Positions 8,954 to 16,695 of a stretch of 64,000 nucleotides of DNA are shown here, one piece after another. Every line of letters starts with the position of its first letter. Within the stretch, counting starts at the first letter, position 1. The DNA comes from Saprospiraceae bacterium (lineage in GTDB: Bacteria > Bacteroidota > Bacteroidia > Chitinophagales > Saprospiraceae). The notes beneath the pieces are model-generated. The model made no database searches, was not told where the DNA came from, and saw only the letters and a list, made by a program, of their open reading frames with translations. Location: NCBI GenBank assembly GCA_030729925.1, contig JANQWK010000004.1:18052-82051 (forward strand), in the 5' to 3' direction. A program made the translations under genes and the position numbers.

Positions 8954-9355
8954 ATGATGAAACCTACCGCTGTTTTGATCCTGTTCTGCTGGTTGTTGTT
9001 GCCCCTGTCTTCCCTGCAGGCTCAGTTTACCCAGATCCTGTATCACACGGAGACGCTGGATGCAAAAGATAGTTTGGTGCTGGATTTCGATCCGACCGTC
9101 AGCATGGAGACCTGGGCCAGCAATCAGGTGTTGGTCGAAACGACCATCCGGCTTTCAAAGGTCAATACCGGTTTGTTGGAACACCTGGTAAAAAGCGGTC
9201 GCTATGCGTTGGAGGTGCATAAAGGCGAGGCTTCCCTTCGCCTCGCACAAAAGCCGATCAATCCGCTGGCCGCTCCGGCACTAGAACAGATTAGCGTGAA
9301 GTTGTATATTCCGGATAGTTTTAAACCCATAGGGGAAGGGGTTTGGCTCAGATAA
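8954..9355 (+). CDS. Secreted hypothetical protein, possibly DUF4097/adhesin-like
   Basis: 133 residues with a clear signal peptide ending LQAQ. The mature region alternates hydrophobic and polar residues and contains VLVETTIRLSKVN and VKLYIPDSF. This resembles repeats in DUF4097-type beta-rich proteins, where short strands measure covariation between residues, but the match is weak. It is probably exported to the periplasm or surface. It overlaps neither neighbour: kdsA ends 9 bases upstream and the FAD dehydrogenase ATG is 11 bases after its stop, which suggests one transcription unit. Confidence 0.65.
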   Translation: MMKPTAVLILFCWLLLPLSSLQAQFTQILYHTETLDAKDSLVLDFDPTVSMETWASNQVLVETTIRLSKVNTGLLEHLVKSGRYALEVHKGEASLRLAQKPINPLAAPALEQISVKLYIPDSFKPIGEGVWLR

Positions 9356-9366
9356 GTCGCAAACGT

Positions 9367-10926
9367 ATGATAAAGGAAATAGAGGTTAAGGTGCTGCCCG
9401 CTAACATGAATGATGAAGCGGCGCTGCGACAGGCAGTTTTGAAAAAAACCGGCTTCGATCCGAAACGAATAAAAGGAGTCAGGTTGATCCGGCAGTCTAT
9501 TGATGCAAGAGGAGCCAGACCGTTCTTTTTATGTAGGTTTGAGGTATTTGTGGATGAAGAACCCACGGAAGTACCGCGCTTGCTGGATGCTTTCCAACAG
9601 GTGAGCCATCGCCCCGAGGCAGTTATTATCGGAGCGGGCCCTGCAGGGTACTTTGCGGCTTTGGAATTGATAGAACTGGGCGTGAGGCCCATTATCTTCG
9701 ATCGCGGAAAGGATGTCCGGGCGAGAAGAAGAGACCTGCGTGCGATCCAGCAGTTTGGCGTGGTTGATCCCGATTCGAATTATTGCTTCGGAGAGGGTGG
9801 GGCAGGTACGTATTCCGATGGCAAACTCTATACCCGCTCGCACAAGCGGGGAAATATTTACAAAGCGCTCAAATTACTGGTAGAACACGGAGCAGATCCG
9901 GCTATTCTAATTGATGCGCATCCCCATATCGGATCCAATAAACTTCCCAAAGTAGTCGCTAATATCAGAGAAACGATTCTTCAATTCGGAGGGGAAATCC
10001 ACTTCGAACACCGACTTACCGATATCCTGATCCGAGATGGGCGTTTGCACGGAGTGGTACTCAACGGGGAAAAGGAATTTGCCTGTAAGGCCATGATCCT
10101 GGCAACCGGACACTCCGCCCGCGATATTTATCAGTTGCTGCAGGCCAGAGGGGTTTACATGGAGGCCAAACCTTTTGCACTGGGCGTGCGGATAGAACAT
10201 CCCCAAATGCTGATTGATGAGATTCAATACCACCAAAAGGTCAGAGAACCCGAGCTTCCTGCTTCGAGTTATCGCCTGAATTGCCAGGTGGACGGACGTG
10301 GCGTGTATTCTTTTTGTATGTGCCCCGGCGGATTGGTGGTACCCGCCGCAACCGCTCCCGGAGAGATCGTAGTCAATGGAATGTCCATGTCGCGACGGGA
10401 TTCCGCTTATGCCAACTCCGGCACAGTGGTGGCTATCGAACTGGAAGATATCCCCGAGTACCACCAATATGGTGCCTTAGCCTGCCTGGAGTTCCAGAAA
10501 GATGTCGAACAACACATTTTCCAGGCAGGAACCGGAAGCCAGCAGGCACCCGCCCAACGCCTCAATGATTTTGTGAACGGCCGATTGTCGGCCAACCTCC
10601 CTGCGACTTCCTATATCCCCGGATTGTATTCGGCAGAACTATCCGGCTTACTTCCAAAATTTGTTTATGAACGATTGCAGAAAGGAGTGCAGATTTTTGG
10701 TAAAAAGATGCATGGATACTACACCCAGGAGGCTAATGTGATTGCTACCGAAAGCCGTACCAGCGCCCCCGTGAAAATTCCCCGGAATAGTAGTACCTTC
10801 ATGCACGAAGGAGTGGAGGGCTTGTTTCCCTGCGGAGAGGGCGCCGGATACGCAGGAGGCATTATTTCCGCAGCCATGGATGGCCAAAACGTGGCCCGGG
10901 CACTCGCAAAATTTTTACAATCCTGA
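9367..10926 (+). CDS. FAD-dependent dehydrogenase (COG2509-type)
   Basis: 519 residues. An N-terminal ~80-residue domain precedes a Rossmann FAD-binding motif IIGAGPAGYFAALEL (about 87-101). Further motifs are FGEGGAGTYSDGKLYTR, a typical signature of this uncharacterised flavoprotein group, ILATGHSARD, and the C-terminal FPCGEGAGYAGGIISAAMDG that completes the flavin site. The family is conserved in Bacteroidota and Clostridia and is often called an uncharacterised FAD-dependent dehydrogenase; the substrate is unknown. The ATG at 9367 is preferred to the TTG at 9343, which would run into the upstream gene. A DoxX-like gene follows after 23 bases. Confidence 0.9.
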   Translation: MIKEIEVKVLPANMNDEAALRQAVLKKTGFDPKRIKGVRLIRQSIDARGARPFFLCRFEVFVDEEPTEVPRLLDAFQQVSHRPEAVIIGAGPAGYFAALELIELGVRPIIFDRGKDVRARRRDLRAIQQFGVVDPDSNYCFGEGGAGTYSDGKLYTRSHKRGNIYKALKLLVEHGADPAILIDAHPHIGSNKLPKVVANIRETILQFGGEIHFEHRLTDILIRDGRLHGVVLNGEKEFACKAMILATGHSARDIYQLLQARGVYMEAKPFALGVRIEHPQMLIDEIQYHQKVREPELPASSYRLNCQVDGRGVYSFCMCPGGLVVPAATAPGEIVVNGMSMSRRDSAYANSGTVVAIELEDIPEYHQYGALACLEFQKDVEQHIFQAGTGSQQAPAQRLNDFVNGRLSANLPATSYIPGLYSAELSGLLPKFVYERLQKGVQIFGKKMHGYYTQEANVIATESRTSAPVKIPRNSSTFMHEGVEGLFPCGEGAGYAGGIISAAMDGQNVARALAKFLQS

Positions 10927-11496: not shown

Positions 11497-11504
11497 TAAT
11501 TTTG
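11497..11504 (+). promoter_or_regulatory. -7 promoter element for the LytTR regulator
   Basis: TAATTTTG is an exact TAnnTTTG match and ends 36 bases before the GTG start at 11541. It supports that start, because the longer TTG frame at 11502 would begin inside the promoter. Confidence 0.5.
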
Positions 11505-11540
11505 TTATATGTAATTTTTAACCATTTAATCCTTCCCAGC

Positions 11541-12302
11541 GTGATTCGAGCCGTGATTATCGAAGATGAAGTCCATGGGTTAAACAACCTCAAAAATCTG
11601 ATCGCAGCAAACTGCGAGGAGCTGGAGATCGTCGGCGAGGCCTCAAGCATCGAAGAAGGACTGGAATTGTTTGCTGATGATTTCCTGGAGCCGGATGTGG
11701 CTTTCCTGGATATAAGCCTGCCCGATGGCCTGGTTTTTCAAATGCTCAATGCACTTCGCCCCATCCGTTTTGATGTGATTTTTGTTACCGCTTTCGAAGA
11801 ATATGCGATCAAAGCCTGTGAATACAGCTCTATTGGTTATATCGTCAAACCCATTGATCCCGATGCACTCAAAGAGGCCGTTGCCCGCGTAAAACCCCGC
11901 CGCAATAACGAAATCAACAACCGACTCGATATTTTTAATACCTTCTACAACAACCCCAATGCCTTCCGCAAAATGAGTATTTCCGCGCTGGATGGCATTT
12001 ATTTTATCAATATACAGGATATTGTACGACTGGAGGCAGAGGACAATTACACCCACGTGTACCTCCATACCTCCGAACGCATCACCGCTTCTAAAACGAT
12101 CAAGGCTTTCGAAGACCTGCTGGAACCTTTCAACTTCTACCGGGTTCATAAAAGACATGTGATTAACCTCAACTACATGCGCAAATTTGTAAAAGGCGAT
12201 GGGGGCTACCTGATCATGGACGATGATATCAAAATCGAAGTGTCCCGCAGACGACGACCCGCATTTATGGAGCAAATGAAAAAATTACAACAAGGGTTCT
12301 GA
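11541..12302 (+). CDS. LytTR-family response regulator
   Basis: 253 residues. The N-terminal receiver domain has the acidic pair in IIEDE, phosphoacceptor Asp57 in AFLDISLPD, the Thr of FVTAF and Lys103 in IVKPID. The C-terminal LytTR DNA-binding domain (about 150-250) shows VRLEAEDNYTHVYL, TIKAFEDLL and FYRVHKRHVINLNYM. Regulators of this kind are phosphorylated by LytS-type kinases with a conserved His; such a kinase is encoded just downstream at 12589. GTG at 11541 is chosen because it gives the family start VIRAVIIEDE and follows a good -7 element. A small double-glycine peptide gene with its own promoter separates it from the kinase. Confidence 0.93.
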   Translation: MIRAVIIEDEVHGLNNLKNLIAANCEELEIVGEASSIEEGLELFADDFLEPDVAFLDISLPDGLVFQMLNALRPIRFDVIFVTAFEEYAIKACEYSSIGYIVKPIDPDALKEAVARVKPRRNNEINNRLDIFNTFYNNPNAFRKMSISALDGIYFINIQDIVRLEAEDNYTHVYLHTSERITASKTIKAFEDLLEPFNFYRVHKRHVINLNYMRKFVKGDGGYLIMDDDIKIEVSRRRRPAFMEQMKKLQQGF

Positions 12303-12309
12303 TCAGCTT

Positions 12310-12338
12310 TTGGCACTTCGGATTTATTCGTATATTTG
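12310..12338 (+). promoter_or_regulatory. Promoter of the double-glycine peptide gene
   Basis: TTG (12310-12312), an 18-base spacer and TATATTTG (12331-12338) give a full Bacteroidota-type promoter. It would produce an ~80-base leader before the peptide ATG at 12423 and would also serve the kinase gene. Confidence 0.65.
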
Positions 12339-12422
12339 TATAACATTATACTGCCGTTTTAGCATATTACCCTCAAAATGCACACACCCAAAGGCTGACG
12401 CAATCAAATAAAAATACTTACT

Positions 12423-12563
12423 ATGGGCAACAAACCAAAAAAAGACCTGGAGGCACTTAAGAAGGGTCTCAAAATTCTCAATAAGGAGGAGATGAAAAAA
12501 ATTATTGGTGGAAAAAATAAAAAGAAATGGAACAATAGCTGTGGAGGGATTCTTCCTCAGTAG
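12423..12563 (+). CDS. 46-aa peptide with double-glycine leader (candidate signal or RiPP precursor)
   Basis: A short ORF that most gene finders would drop. The translated N-terminus is polar and Lys-rich and ends in LNKEEMKKIIGG. This fits the bacteriocin/ComC-type leader consensus (Leu-Ser-x-x-Glu-Leu/Met-x-x-Ile-x-Gly-Gly) cleaved by C39 peptidase ABC exporters. Cleavage after Gly30 would release KNKKKWNNSCGGILPQ, a basic 16-residue core with one Cys. The gene has its own promoter, lies 120 bases after a LytTR regulator gene and ends 25 bases before the TPR histidine kinase gene. By analogy with streptococcal pheromone loci it could encode an autoinducing peptide, but a modified natural product is also possible. 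No exporter is present in the window. Confidence 0.7.
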   Translation: MGNKPKKDLEALKKGLKILNKEEMKKIIGGKNKKKWNNSCGGILPQ

Positions 12564-12588
12564 ATATGCTTCCCATTGATGCTTCCTG

Positions 12589-14502
12589 ATGCTGGAAACC
12601 GGTTCGAGTTTAATTGAAACTGCAGTCCTGGAGGCCAAGCTTCGCAGCCAAAAGGATCCCTTACAAAGACTGGTACTTATTGACCAGCTGGCATCGTTTT
12701 ATGTGTTCACCAACGTAGTTCGTGCTCAGGAATTACTGACCGAACTTGCTCAGATCCTCAGCATCCACGATTTCCCCGATTTCCAACTGAATTATCATTT
12801 GTTTAGAGGGCTGGTCAACAACCAGCAGTATTTTTTCGATCAGGCACGTCACGAGTTTGTACAGGCTATTGCGTTGTTGCAAGAGCGAGGTACGGTAAAG
12901 CAACAGGCTGAGACCTACATAGATTATGCCGGGGTGTGTATGAACCTCGATGATATGGAGGGGGCAACCCAGTACCTGGACTTGGCGACCCGCCTGCTGA
13001 AAAATTTTCCCGATGAGGGATTACTGGCAAGGGTGATTTGCAGGGAGGGCTTCCTGAACTTGCATTATGCCAATTATTCCAGAGCAATAGAGCTACTGCT
13101 GGCCGCAGATAAAAAAATTACAACCCTGAACCGTGGGCTGGATCTGAAAGATTATTATTTCCTTACGCTGATCCATAGCGGTCTGGGTAAGATCTACGAG
13201 GTCAACGACGATCCGGAAAAGTGCGTGATGGCTTACCTGAAGGTGGTGAATATGTCGGAGGCCATGGAAATGCGTACCCGGATTTCCTGGCATTACCTGA
13301 ATGTGGGTACAGCTTACATTGCATTGGAAGAGTATTCGAGCGCAGAGCCTTATTTCAGAAAGGCCATCGAAACTTCTGATGATATGAGCCAGTATGCCAG
13401 GGCAAGTGCTTATGCGAACCTGGGGTACTGCTTCCTGGAAAATCGTTCCTATCCGGAGGCACTGGATTTTTTTGCCCGGGCAGAGGACTTGTACCGCGAT
13501 AGCGCCGAGGATGAGTTCTATAATTTTGCACTGATCGAGTCCTGGAGAGGGCGCTTGTATGCCGAAACCAATCAGGAAAAGTTAGCCATCAAACATTTTG
13601 CCCGGGCTTATGAACATGCCCAGACGATTAGCAATTTCAAATTGCTGGCAAATTTGTGCAGGGATATTGCTACTTTTTATGCAGAAAAATCCGATTACCA
13701 GAGCGCCTACGATTACCAACTGCTGAATGAGAAGTTTGCCGAGAAATACCTGGAACAGGCCAACTTGCGCAAACAGTCAGAACTGGAGGTGAAGTACGAG
13801 GCAGAAAAGAAGAAACAGGAAATGGAACTGCTTCGCCTTCAGGCTACCAAACTCCAATTGAAAGCCCTGCGCGCCCAGATGAATCCCCACTTCTTGTTCA
13901 ATGCGCTCAATGCAATACAAAATTTTATTACCTCCAACGATATTACTTCCGCTACCAAATACCTTGCCCGCTTTGCCCAGCTGATGCGCCAAAGTCTCGA
14001 TTATTCAGATATGGAGATCATCTCCCTGGAAAAAGAGATCGCCTTCCTTCGGGATTATCTGCAAATCAACGAAAAACTTCGCTTCAAGGATCGCCTGCGC
14101 TTCGATATCCTCGTGGACGAGGATATCGAAGAGGATATCCTCGGGGTGCCTACGATGATCGTGCAGCCGTATGTGGAGAATGCGATCGAGCATGGACTGC
14201 GCAGCCGCGAAAATGGTTTTGTAGAGGTGAAGTTTAGCCTGATTGATGATCATACGATCCTTTGTACGATCCGCGACAATGGGATAGGCCGCCGCGCCGC
14301 CCGCATGCAGCGACTTCAGGATCCCCAGTACCAAAACCACCGCTCCAGAGGGACGAGTATCACCGAAAAACGCCTGCAAATTCTCCATCAGGCCAAGGCA
14401 GATGAGGTCTTCGTGGAAACGATTGATTTGTACGATCCCGATTCCGGCGAGGTGCAAGGAACTATGGTCAAGGTGAAAATACCCGTTTTTGAGATCCAAT
14501 AA
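12589..14502 (+). CDS. Soluble TPR-containing LytS-type histidine kinase
   Basis: 637 residues. Residues 1-~380 form tetratricopeptide-like helical repeats (SWHYLNVGTAYIALEEYSSA, SAYANLGYCFLENRSYPEA). A coiled coil spans about 385-428. Next comes the His_kinase domain with the phosphoacceptor His434 in RAQMNPHFLFNALNAIQNF and the HATPase N-box VQPYVENAIEHG (about 525-536). The Gly-rich IRDNGIGRRAA follows. I see no membrane helix or signal peptide, so this is a cytoplasmic sensor. The LytTR regulator upstream is the obvious partner. TPR domains often bind peptides, so the adjacent double-glycine peptide is a plausible ligand (inference). The stop codon abuts the acylase start. Confidence 0.92.
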   Translation: MLETGSSLIETAVLEAKLRSQKDPLQRLVLIDQLASFYVFTNVVRAQELLTELAQILSIHDFPDFQLNYHLFRGLVNNQQYFFDQARHEFVQAIALLQERGTVKQQAETYIDYAGVCMNLDDMEGATQYLDLATRLLKNFPDEGLLARVICREGFLNLHYANYSRAIELLLAADKKITTLNRGLDLKDYYFLTLIHSGLGKIYEVNDDPEKCVMAYLKVVNMSEAMEMRTRISWHYLNVGTAYIALEEYSSAEPYFRKAIETSDDMSQYARASAYANLGYCFLENRSYPEALDFFARAEDLYRDSAEDEFYNFALIESWRGRLYAETNQEKLAIKHFARAYEHAQTISNFKLLANLCRDIATFYAEKSDYQSAYDYQLLNEKFAEKYLEQANLRKQSELEVKYEAEKKKQEMELLRLQATKLQLKALRAQMNPHFLFNALNAIQNFITSNDITSATKYLARFAQLMRQSLDYSDMEIISLEKEIAFLRDYLQINEKLRFKDRLRFDILVDEDIEEDILGVPTMIVQPYVENAIEHGLRSRENGFVEVKFSLIDDHTILCTIRDNGIGRRAARMQRLQDPQYQNHRSRGTSITEKRLQILHQAKADEVFVETIDLYDPDSGEVQGTMVKVKIPVFEIQ

Positions 14503-16695
14503 ATGCTATCCATGAAAACCAACTTTACCCTCTTTCTGCTTCCATTCTTATTCCTGTTTGCCGCTTGCGAACAGACGAGCAAGGATCCGGAGCTTTCCCG
14601 ATGGGAAAACCAAGCCGCCAATGTTACGATCATTCGGGACGATTTTGGGGTACCCCATATTTACGGAAAAACCGATGCCGATGCGGTGTTCGGCTTGCTG
14701 TACGCCCAATGTGAAGATGATTTTATGCGGGTGGAGCGAAATTATATTTGGGCCATCGGCCGATTGGCCGAGGTGGAAGGGGAGAAGTCTTTGTATAGCG
14801 ACCTGCGCGCTCAGCTGTTTATGACCCGGGAAGAGGCCCAACAGGCCTACGATGAAAGCCCCGATTGGCTGAAGGCACTTTGCAATGCTTTTGCCGACGG
14901 CATCAATTATTACCTGCATACCCATCCCGAGGTGAAACCGGCTTTGCTGACCCGCTTCGAGCCATGGATGCCTTTCTATTTTAGCGAAGGATCTATCGGC
15001 GGAGATATCGAAAGGGTTTCTACACAACGCCTGGAGGCTTTCTATGAAAATACGCCGGTGCCCGCCACTACTGAGTTGAGCTACCTCCATACCCTGGAGG
15101 AACCCCAAGGGTCAAATGGTATCGCAATTTCCGGCAAACTTACCCAGTCCGGCAATCCGCTGCTCCTGATTAATCCGCACACGACTTTCTATTTCAGACC
15201 CGAAGTGCATGTGGTGAGCGAAGAAGGTCTCAACGCTTATGGGGCTGTTACCTGGGGGCAATTTTTTGTTTATCAGGGATTTAACGAAAAAACAGGCTGG
15301 ATGCATACTTCCAGCGCCACCGATGTGATTGATGAGTTTGTCGAGGTGGTGGCCCAAAGGGATGGCGCGCTGCAATACCAGTACGGCTCAGAATGGCGAC
15401 CCGTTTCTGAAATGAACCTGAGCCTGAAATACCAGACAGGGGATTCCCTGGCGGAAAAATCTTTTTCGGTGTACCGCACTCACCACGGGCCTATTACCCA
15501 TGAACGGGAAGACCAATGGGTGGCAACCGCACTGATGTGGGAGCCTTCGATGGCGTTACAACAGGCTTTTACCCGCACAAAGTTGAGCAACCACGATGAG
15601 TTTCGCCAAATGATGGAGATGCGTACGAATTCTTCCAACAATACGGTGTACGCAGATGCTTCCGGCAATATTGCTTATTATCAGGGCAATTTCATTCCCC
15701 GAAGGGATACCCGCTTCGATTATGCTCAAGCGGTGGATGGGAGCGATCCGGCTACCGATTGGCAAGGATTGCACGATCTGAACGAGTGCCTGATCCTGCT
15801 TAATCCCGAAAATGGCTGGATACAGAATTGCAATTCTACTCCTTTTACGGCAGCTGGCACATATAGTCCCAAAAGAGAGGATTATCCCTACTATATGGCA
15901 CCGGAAGAGGAAAATTTTCGCGGGGTACACGCGGTTCGACTCCTCGAGCAACGCAAAGATTTTACCCTGGAAAGTTTACTCGAACTGGCCTATGATTCCG
16001 CTTTGCCAGCTTTCGAACAGATCATCCCCGGATTGGTATCGGCTTTCGATGCCAACCCTACCGCTTATCCTGATCTACAGGAGGCTATCGAATTGCTGCG
16101 TGCCTGGGATTTCAAGACTTCGGTCAGCTCTGTACCGATGACTTTGGCACATTATTATACGACCCAGTGCCTGCGCGATGGAAAAACACCACAGGGCTTG
16201 TCCTTCATGGATCGGGTAAATTATTTCGGCACAGCCGCTCCACTCCAAGAACGACTGGATATTTTTTCCGAAGTGGTGAAGCAATTGACCGCGGATTTCG
16301 GAACTTGGAATTTGCCCTGGGGCGAGGTGAACCGCTTCCAGCGGCTGAGCAATGAATGGGTGCCTCGCTTTGATGATAATGCGCCCAGTATTCCGGTGGG
16401 TTTCGCTTCCGGCAACTGGGGATCCCTGGCAGCCTACGGGATGCGGGGTAGCGTACAAGGCAATCCCAAAAAGATTTATGGTACCCGCGGCAATAGTTTT
16501 GTGGCCGTGGTAGAGTTTGGCGAACGGGTGCGAGCCAAAAGCATCCTGGCCGGAGGCCAGAACGGCGATCCCGCTTCTCCTCATTTCAACGATCAGGCTC
16601 AGCGATACGCGGAGGTGAATTTCAAAGACGTGGCTTATTATCGGGAAGATGTGGAGCAAAGAGCAGTGCGGACGTACCGTCCCGGCGAAAGATAA
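14503..16695 (+). CDS. Penicillin acylase / AHL acylase family lipoprotein
   Basis: 730 residues, Ntn-hydrolase fold. The lipoprotein signal ends in LFAAC (Cys near 22). The alpha-chain contains the motif IIRDDFGVPHIYG. The expected autocatalytic cleavage site is PQGSNGIAISG, with Ser204 as the new N-terminal nucleophile of the beta-chain; SNNTVYADASGNIAYYQGN later in the chain is also typical. Relatives such as PvdQ/QuiP-type enzymes hydrolyse acyl-homoserine lactones, and others cleave beta-lactams or lipopeptides. The ATG at 14503 directly follows the kinase stop (TAA-ATG), implying translational coupling; an ATG three codons on (14512) would also give a good signal. A strong terminator follows. 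Confidence 0.88.
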   Translation: MLSMKTNFTLFLLPFLFLFAACEQTSKDPELSRWENQAANVTIIRDDFGVPHIYGKTDADAVFGLLYAQCEDDFMRVERNYIWAIGRLAEVEGEKSLYSDLRAQLFMTREEAQQAYDESPDWLKALCNAFADGINYYLHTHPEVKPALLTRFEPWMPFYFSEGSIGGDIERVSTQRLEAFYENTPVPATTELSYLHTLEEPQGSNGIAISGKLTQSGNPLLLINPHTTFYFRPEVHVVSEEGLNAYGAVTWGQFFVYQGFNEKTGWMHTSSATDVIDEFVEVVAQRDGALQYQYGSEWRPVSEMNLSLKYQTGDSLAEKSFSVYRTHHGPITHEREDQWVATALMWEPSMALQQAFTRTKLSNHDEFRQMMEMRTNSSNNTVYADASGNIAYYQGNFIPRRDTRFDYAQAVDGSDPATDWQGLHDLNECLILLNPENGWIQNCNSTPFTAAGTYSPKREDYPYYMAPEEENFRGVHAVRLLEQRKDFTLESLLELAYDSALPAFEQIIPGLVSAFDANPTAYPDLQEAIELLRAWDFKTSVSSVPMTLAHYYTTQCLRDGKTPQGLSFMDRVNYFGTAAPLQERLDIFSEVVKQLTADFGTWNLPWGEVNRFQRLSNEWVPRFDDNAPSIPVGFASGNWGSLAAYGMRGSVQGNPKKIYGTRGNSFVAVVEFGERVRAKSILAGGQNGDPASPHFNDQAQRYAEVNFKDVAYYREDVEQRAVRTYRPGER

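Follow-up and report, generated by a model that had tools for sequence, protein, structure and literature searches.

A double-glycine peptide gene between LytTR regulator and TPR kinase genes: a candidate peptide-signalling module in Saprospiraceae

Signalling by peptides has been studied extensively in Gram-positive bacteria but, to our knowledge, hardly in Bacteroidota. ComC/BlpC systems, described from Bacillota, combine a peptide with a Gly-Gly leader, a C39 exporter and the two-component pairs ComDE and BlpRH, in which ComD and BlpH are membrane kinases. In a second group from Bacillota, the RRNPP receptors (Rap, NprR, PlcR), a tetratricopeptide repeat (TPR) receptor stands beside a small peptide gene whose precursor carries a Sec signal. 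Here, we analyse a 64,000-nucleotide stretch (hereafter the window) of contig JANQWK010000004.1 from a Saprospiraceae bacterium. On its + strand, a LytTR response regulator gene, a 46-codon open reading frame (ORF) with a double-glycine leader and a TPR histidine kinase gene follow one another. We consider it somewhat probable that the ORF encodes the ligand of a two-component signalling module found family-wide.

The locus shares with ComC/BlpC the Gly-Gly leader, a C39 exporter in the genome and a LytTR regulator adjoining the peptide gene (54 of 62 homologues). It differs by a TPR-LytS kinase without Pfam membrane domain, an unlinked exporter, a single C-terminal consensus throughout the family and a Bacteroidota host. 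An initial annotation of this DNA, made from the letters alone, had called it a ComC/BlpC counterpart. The export side fits this description, but the kinase is a TPR protein lacking a Pfam membrane domain and has Rap and NprR among its best fold matches. With RRNPP systems, the locus has in common the TPR receptor fold beside a small peptide gene. In contrast, its output is a LytS His_kinase/HATPase module, not a helix-turn-helix or Rap-type one, and its precursor has a Gly-Gly leader. The RRNPP_detector survey concerns complete Firmicutes genomes (PMC10075063).

Two other described systems show partial likeness. In Synechococcus elongatus, four EbfG proteins of one strain, also of the Gly-Gly type, depend on the peptidase transporter PteB, which has a conserved cysteine, and act in biofilm formation, a group behaviour; a kinase-regulator pair next to these genes is not mentioned in the abstract (PMC4997328). 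The Bacteroidales cluster BGC5, which encodes a ribosomally synthesised and post-translationally modified peptide (RiPP), combines Gly-Gly motif residues with a histidine kinase and a response regulator. It differs in having radical SAM (rSAM) and LanC-like enzymes and two long-core precursors, and in lacking a transporter (PMC10352776). Judged by titles and the beginnings of abstracts, we found no description of the present module in literature from which most subscription journals are absent. Within the same coverage, no paper joined double-glycine, Bacteroidetes and LytTR, nor Saprospiraceae with LytTR; a single genome paper joins tetratricopeptide, histidine kinase, LytTR and Bacteroidetes. 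We place the module as an apparently undescribed combination of ComC-like export, RRNPP-like reception and LytS-LytTR output.

The peptide gene (12423-12563, + strand) starts with ATG and encodes 46 residues, reading MGNKPKKDLEALKKGLKILNKEEMKKIIGG/KNKKKWNNSCGGILPQ (leader/core). The leader, residues 1-30, ends with LNKEEMKKIIGG at residues 29-30. The 16-residue core, residues 31-46, is basic with one cysteine, as first annotated, and contains four lysines. On the double-glycine model TIGR01847, the peptide scores 16.7 bits, above the cut-off of 15.7; this model reaches E≤0.01 for only 3 of 60 homologues. The score on Pfam Bacteriocin_IIc, 17.5 bits, lies below the cut-off of 27.1.

A kinase-based scan of public genomes gave nine relatives, in eight of which a small ORF separates regulator and kinase; one of these eight ORFs (L009) lacks Gly-Gly. 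In the ninth relative (L006), regulator and peptide are not upstream of the kinase, and the matched genome (G051) has the peptide beside the regulator on another contig (L066). A profile built from eight peptide sequences matched in 160 of 398 genomes and in 55 of 112 genera of the family (E≤0.01; weak matches were inspected in part, and the profile misses diverged peptides). A single match was found in 154 of the 160 positive genomes. The initial annotation had named missing coding constraint as grounds for giving up its proposal. The rate of non-synonymous change (pN) was below the synonymous rate (pS) in all 42 close pairs passing a similarity filter, with a median ratio of 0.12 among pairs that overlap and in which many synonymous distances are saturated. 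The 46-codon ORF is a real gene under strong purifying selection. That it is spurious or a non-coding relic has practically no probability left: nothing in its favour came to light, the selection test refutes this idea, and homologues occur family-wide.

Conservation of the peptide gene between its two neighbours had been set beforehand as a test, and 46 of 62 distinct homologues are flanked by both partners. Neither of the two results that would have spoken against the initial annotation was obtained. The regulator is directly upstream in 54 cases and the kinase directly downstream in 51. At least one partner adjoins 59 homologues, and three (L057, L061, L062) have neither. Where the operon is split, the kinase orthologue was found elsewhere in 11 of 12 genomes tested (all but G360; in G081, a contig end truncates it). 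A search for the regulator succeeded in 10 of 10 genomes, which did not include G110 (L090) and G262 (L096), where only the kinase adjoins the peptide gene. A reverse search showed that 8 of 61 genomes without a match to the first profile carry a strong regulator orthologue (G015, G016, G046, G059, G063, G075, G079 and G103; E≤1e-70, a limit set after the values were seen). In seven of these eight, a small peptide ORF missed by the first profile adjoins the regulator, that of G079 being without Gly-Gly. In G063, no peptide ORF was found beside either of two regulators. Among genomes that have neither a peptide match nor a strong regulator, 26 were searched for the kinase; an orthologue reaching the TPR part is absent from 25 of them, the exception being G026. 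Beyond the family, one weak partial match was obtained (G502, E=3.7e-4) among 248 genomes drawn from the order, an unspecified part of them from outside the family. Orthologues of the regulator itself are 92% identical in a same-genus relative (L042) and 49-79% identical in the others compared.

Three side observations concern copy number and place. In genome G046, two different Gly-Gly peptides are encoded in tandem between regulator and kinase (L161, 2668-2838 and 3033-3239 in reverse-complement coordinates). In G136, the peptide gene occurs a second time as an unlinked copy whose tail is similar (L057, 4923-5093). In genus g41 (L061, L062), the peptide gene stands apart from both partners; at both loci inspected, it immediately precedes an ORF that resembles the nicotinamide transporter PnuC. 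All 7 g41 genomes searched for the regulator have it elsewhere, and 3 of 4 have a kinase orthologue.

The initial annotation had suggested looking for a C39 peptidase/ATP-binding cassette (ABC) exporter elsewhere in the genome, and one is present. The window's genome, which has one such peptide, also has a single C39 domain. It belongs to a C39-ABC protein of 729 residues, whose gene lies on an unlinked contig (C8) and precedes an HlyD-family gene. A Hydrolase_4 (alpha/beta hydrolase) gene (L012, 9103-9939) overlaps the start of this exporter gene, and because of this overlap the two are probably cotranscribed.

C39 presence was scored at E≤1e-10 in genomes picked for completeness (first set) and by running number (second set). 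A C39 domain was found in 57 of 57 genomes with the peptide or a strong regulator (42/42, 9/9 and 6/6), as against 8 of 51 genomes without the system (5/26 and 3/25), two of these eight hits being weak or fragmentary (G013, G056). Our own tally by genus gave 42/42 versus 8/48 (Fisher P=8e-18, a nominal value because of shared ancestry). When the whole exporter was searched (E≤1e-100), it was found in 38 of 42 carriers and 3 of 26 non-carriers. The contrast also appears within genus g7. There, G006 has all four components and G334 has peptide and C39, whereas G241, rated 100% complete, has no peptide, kinase or C39 and no close regulator. This supports a real link among the components. Carrier genomes include sizes of 2.8-3.8 Mb; genome size alone is no explanation for the co-occurrence of C39. 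Peptide, regulator, kinase and C39 behave as if inherited together, as would be expected of a signalling module. A single pathway is the simplest account, because the four genes come and go together.

The constant part of the peptide was then located by alignment of the window peptide with 59 homologues (alignment A2, from which the unlinked copies L057, L061 and L062 were left out). Gly-Gly is invariant in 60 of 60 sequences, and conservation is 90% or more at Met1, Pro45 and Gln46. Outside the Gly-Gly leader, the most constant part is a C-terminal consensus, C-G-G-I-[VL]-P-Q-stop. Among 65 homologues, the final Gln is found in 58, the preceding Pro in 63, Ile at position -4 in 47, Gly at -5 in 50, Gly at -6 in 53 and Cys at -7 in 51. 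The region between leader and tail varies in both length and sequence. Since this middle region varies and the cysteine is replaced in 14 of the 65, it is the C-terminus that stays constant in the presumed mature peptide, and the cysteine is not essential. The emphasis that the initial annotation had put on the basic core and its Cys is therefore to be moved to the C-terminal Pro-Gln tail. The Pro-Gln end is kept where the remaining peptide diverges, and two ORFs without Gly-Gly still end with Pro-His and Pro-Gln.

A lanthipeptide, a disulfide-containing product or an rSAM product was also considered and is not favoured, because the cysteine is replaceable and the score on TIGR04149, the model of rSAM-modified RiPP precursors, is too low. 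The window peptide has a similar leader and reaches 21.3 bits on this model, below the curated cut-off of 25, and is not a member. It differs from that family also by its conserved C-terminus and by the two-component genes on both sides. TIGR04149 reaches E≤0.01 for 11 of 60 homologues. No radical SAM maturase was named among the five window genes to which the scan was confined.

The Pfam domains agree with the first assignment of the two neighbours. The regulator gene (11541-12302, + strand) encodes LytTR (4e-19) and Response_reg (3.4e-13) domains, both above cut-off. Its GTG start was picked from homologues; a longer alternative in the ORF list starts with TTG at 11502. The kinase gene (12589-14502, + strand) encodes 637 residues, with TPR at about 10-390, His_kinase at 423-503 and HATPase at 524-633. 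The His_kinase/HATPase module is of the LytS class, and H434, N531 and the G-box residues are invariant in 10 of 10 sequences. The Pfam scan, run with no transmembrane predictor beside it, showed no membrane domain.

In an AlphaFold2 model of the kinase (pTM 0.60 overall), residues 10-390 form helical hairpins, with ten-residue blocks of pLDDT 79-96 from residue 11, most of them 87-96. Paired by hand, they can be described as nine predicted TPR hairpins. The TPR domain resembles peptide receptors. The top structural matches of the model are LGN bound to partners (Z 26.7), RapI (25.3), RapF with peptide (24.6) and NprR (23.6). As all matches are TPR superhelices, they indicate fold and not function. 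In each of the nine hairpins, helix A shows higher conservation than helix B (47 orthologues, with no control TPR family). Nearly invariant polar residues (N78, N119, R152, D188, R231, N277, N312) are located on the A helices or at their ends. In TPR proteins, the A helices line the groove.

A mechanism can be proposed for the ligand reading. The precursor would be made from its own promoter, and its leader would be cut after Gly-Gly by the C39 peptidase-ABC transporter, here the unlinked C39-ABC/HlyD pair on contig C8. A short basic peptide would then leave the cell. The TPR domain of the cytoplasmic kinase would recognise the tail of this peptide, C-G-G-I-[VL]-P-Q-COOH, in its concave groove. 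As this receptor is cytoplasmic, recognition would have to follow re-uptake or take place within the producing cell, on precursor not yet exported. It would change phosphorylation of the LytTR regulator, whose output may include a loop on the peptide's own promoter, where no LytTR-type repeat is enriched. We infer export by the C39 transporter, binding by the TPR domain, signalling from kinase to regulator and the direction of the response. The first annotation's candidate peptide-signalling system is partly supported, by co-inheritance of the peptide with the regulator-kinase pair and C39; that the peptide is a signal and not a regulated product, and where it would act, we likewise infer.

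A wider proposal is held more tentatively, as possible and short of probable. It is that of a complete cell-cell system of Bacteroidota, with a ComC-style peptide exported through C39, RRNPP-style reception by a cytoplasmic TPR kinase and a C-terminal Gly-Gly-Ile-Val/Leu-Pro-Gln code shared across genera, in place of strain-specific pherotypes. If this is true, a C-terminus common to several genera would let different species understand one another's signal. The system would consist of few parts, namely peptide, regulator, kinase and exporter. A 16-residue peptide, which can be made synthetically, is the likely ligand, and the likely receptor is a soluble kinase amenable to purification. Exported peptide signals in Bacteroidota, and their reading by a cytoplasmic TPR kinase, are now directly testable.

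Several observations weigh against the signalling reading. The counts are non-independent through shared ancestry, and the search itself accounts in part for the near-invariance of Gly-Gly and tail, as the profiles used to find homologues contain both. In the window's genome, the exporter is unlinked to the peptide gene, and many genomes contain several C39 proteins. G026, which has a kinase orthologue and no C39, was counted as a non-carrier; counted as a carrier, it changes the C39 figures to 57/58 versus 8/50. The TPR match is generic, the eukaryotic LGN scoring as high as the bacterial receptors. Co-divergence with the peptide was measured by a partial distance-matrix test on 47 loci, which is not used as support. 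It showed nothing specific to the TPR part (core versus TPR, r=0.06, a value reached in 86 of 300 permutations); what excess there was belonged to the kinase domain (core, r=0.29, 0/300) and the receiver domain (tail, r=0.20, 4/300). LytTR-type half-site pairs are not in excess upstream of the peptide genes, with 7 of 47 regions against a mean of 10.0, and 55 of 60 dinucleotide shuffles as high. Lastly, two ORFs at the same place lack Gly-Gly: that of L009 (genome G079) ends with CGDLLPH and that of G026 with CGVSTPQ. Since G026 has no C39 and G079 has one, these sequences suggest that export may not be essential everywhere.

These two ORFs bear on one alternative, in which the peptide would be an intracellular ligand or brake of the TPR kinase. 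Gly-Gly and C39 would then serve to remove the peptide, and the module would report the cell's export capacity, not its neighbours. The kinase without Pfam membrane domain is consistent with this idea. So is G026, where the ORF ending with CGVSTPQ stands directly before the kinase orthologue in a C39-free genome, and so is L009, which keeps a CGDLLPH end without Gly-Gly. However, the genome of L009 does have a C39; a tie between loss of Gly-Gly and loss of C39, considered at one stage, was dropped for that reason. Both ORFs are too diverged for the profile (E=6.8 for that of G026; that of L009, seen again in L164, is not among the listed matches), so their homology rests on place and tail. Moreover, Gly-Gly is kept in the 60 aligned homologues, which are profile-selected, and in 4 of 5 genomes with profile-missed peptides beside the regulator (G046, G059, G075 and G103, not G079). 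We regard the intracellular alternative as improbable.

The main rival to the signalling reading is that the peptide is an output, namely an effector exported through C39 (bacteriocin-like, or involved in adhesion or biofilm) and the main target gene of regulator and kinase. The Gly-Gly leader, basic core and C39 co-occurrence suit an effector, and the missing TPR-specific co-divergence argues for it. Its gene has a conserved promoter of its own directly downstream of the regulator, and adjacency to the regulator (54/62) is at least as persistent as adjacency to the kinase (51/62). Against an effector stand the single match in 154 of 160 positive genomes, the strong purifying selection and the nearly fixed C-terminus, as bacteriocins usually diversify. 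The cysteine is replaceable, and between regulator and kinase in the window there is no additional gene that could confer immunity. On the other side, cyanobacterial Gly-Gly proteins do take part in biofilm development, as the abstract cited above reports (PMC4997328). Taken together, an effector is unlikely, if less so than an intracellular brake, and we retain the ligand of a two-component module as the preferred reading.

The promoter on which both readings draw is of the Bacteroidota type, TTG-N18-TATATTTG, located at 12310-12338 (+ strand). The initial annotation had pointed to it, and it is indeed present. As a bare pattern it is weak evidence and not significant, with two occurrences in the window versus 0.74 expected and 15 of 100 shuffles reaching two. 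Its -7 element, TANNTTTR, lies 45-130 nucleotides before the start codon in 39 of 47 intergenic regions of relatives, compared with a shuffle mean of 8.8. These 47 regions remain of 55 cut out, after removal of near-duplicates and regions shorter than 100 nucleotides. Motif discovery, from which seven near-duplicate or unlinked loci were dropped, recovered the promoter element and A/T-rich motifs of the start site. Larger-width motifs were discarded because they correspond to codons of the 3' end of the regulator gene.

Another upstream element, AATAAAAAWATGTR, was picked by eye. Allowing at most one mismatch, it is found 101-182 nucleotides upstream of 11 of 62 homologues, on the same strand (L005, L043, L055, L060, L066, L076, L078, L085, L088, L091 and L099), and TTATGNG precedes it in four. 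Of its 15 occurrences in 585 kb of loci, 11 stand before peptide genes and four elsewhere. It is absent from the short intergenic region of the window and is a candidate operator of a subgroup. Directly before the start codon (12420-12425 in the window, and relatives), the triplet reads ACT in 32 of 63 upstream regions and GCT in another 13, which might be a translation signal.

Downstream, a penicillin amidase family gene (14503-16695; Pfam 4.4e-124) begins with the base that directly follows the kinase stop codon. Its similarity to the model of the acylase PvdQ is weak (69 bits, cut-off 950). This gene was rejected as a member of the system, as it is near only 1 of 62 homologous loci, that of a same-genus relative. 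Within the limits of the flanks fetched, a DoxX gene recurs at 24 of 62 loci and the long upstream gene at 9343-10926 at 19 of 62.

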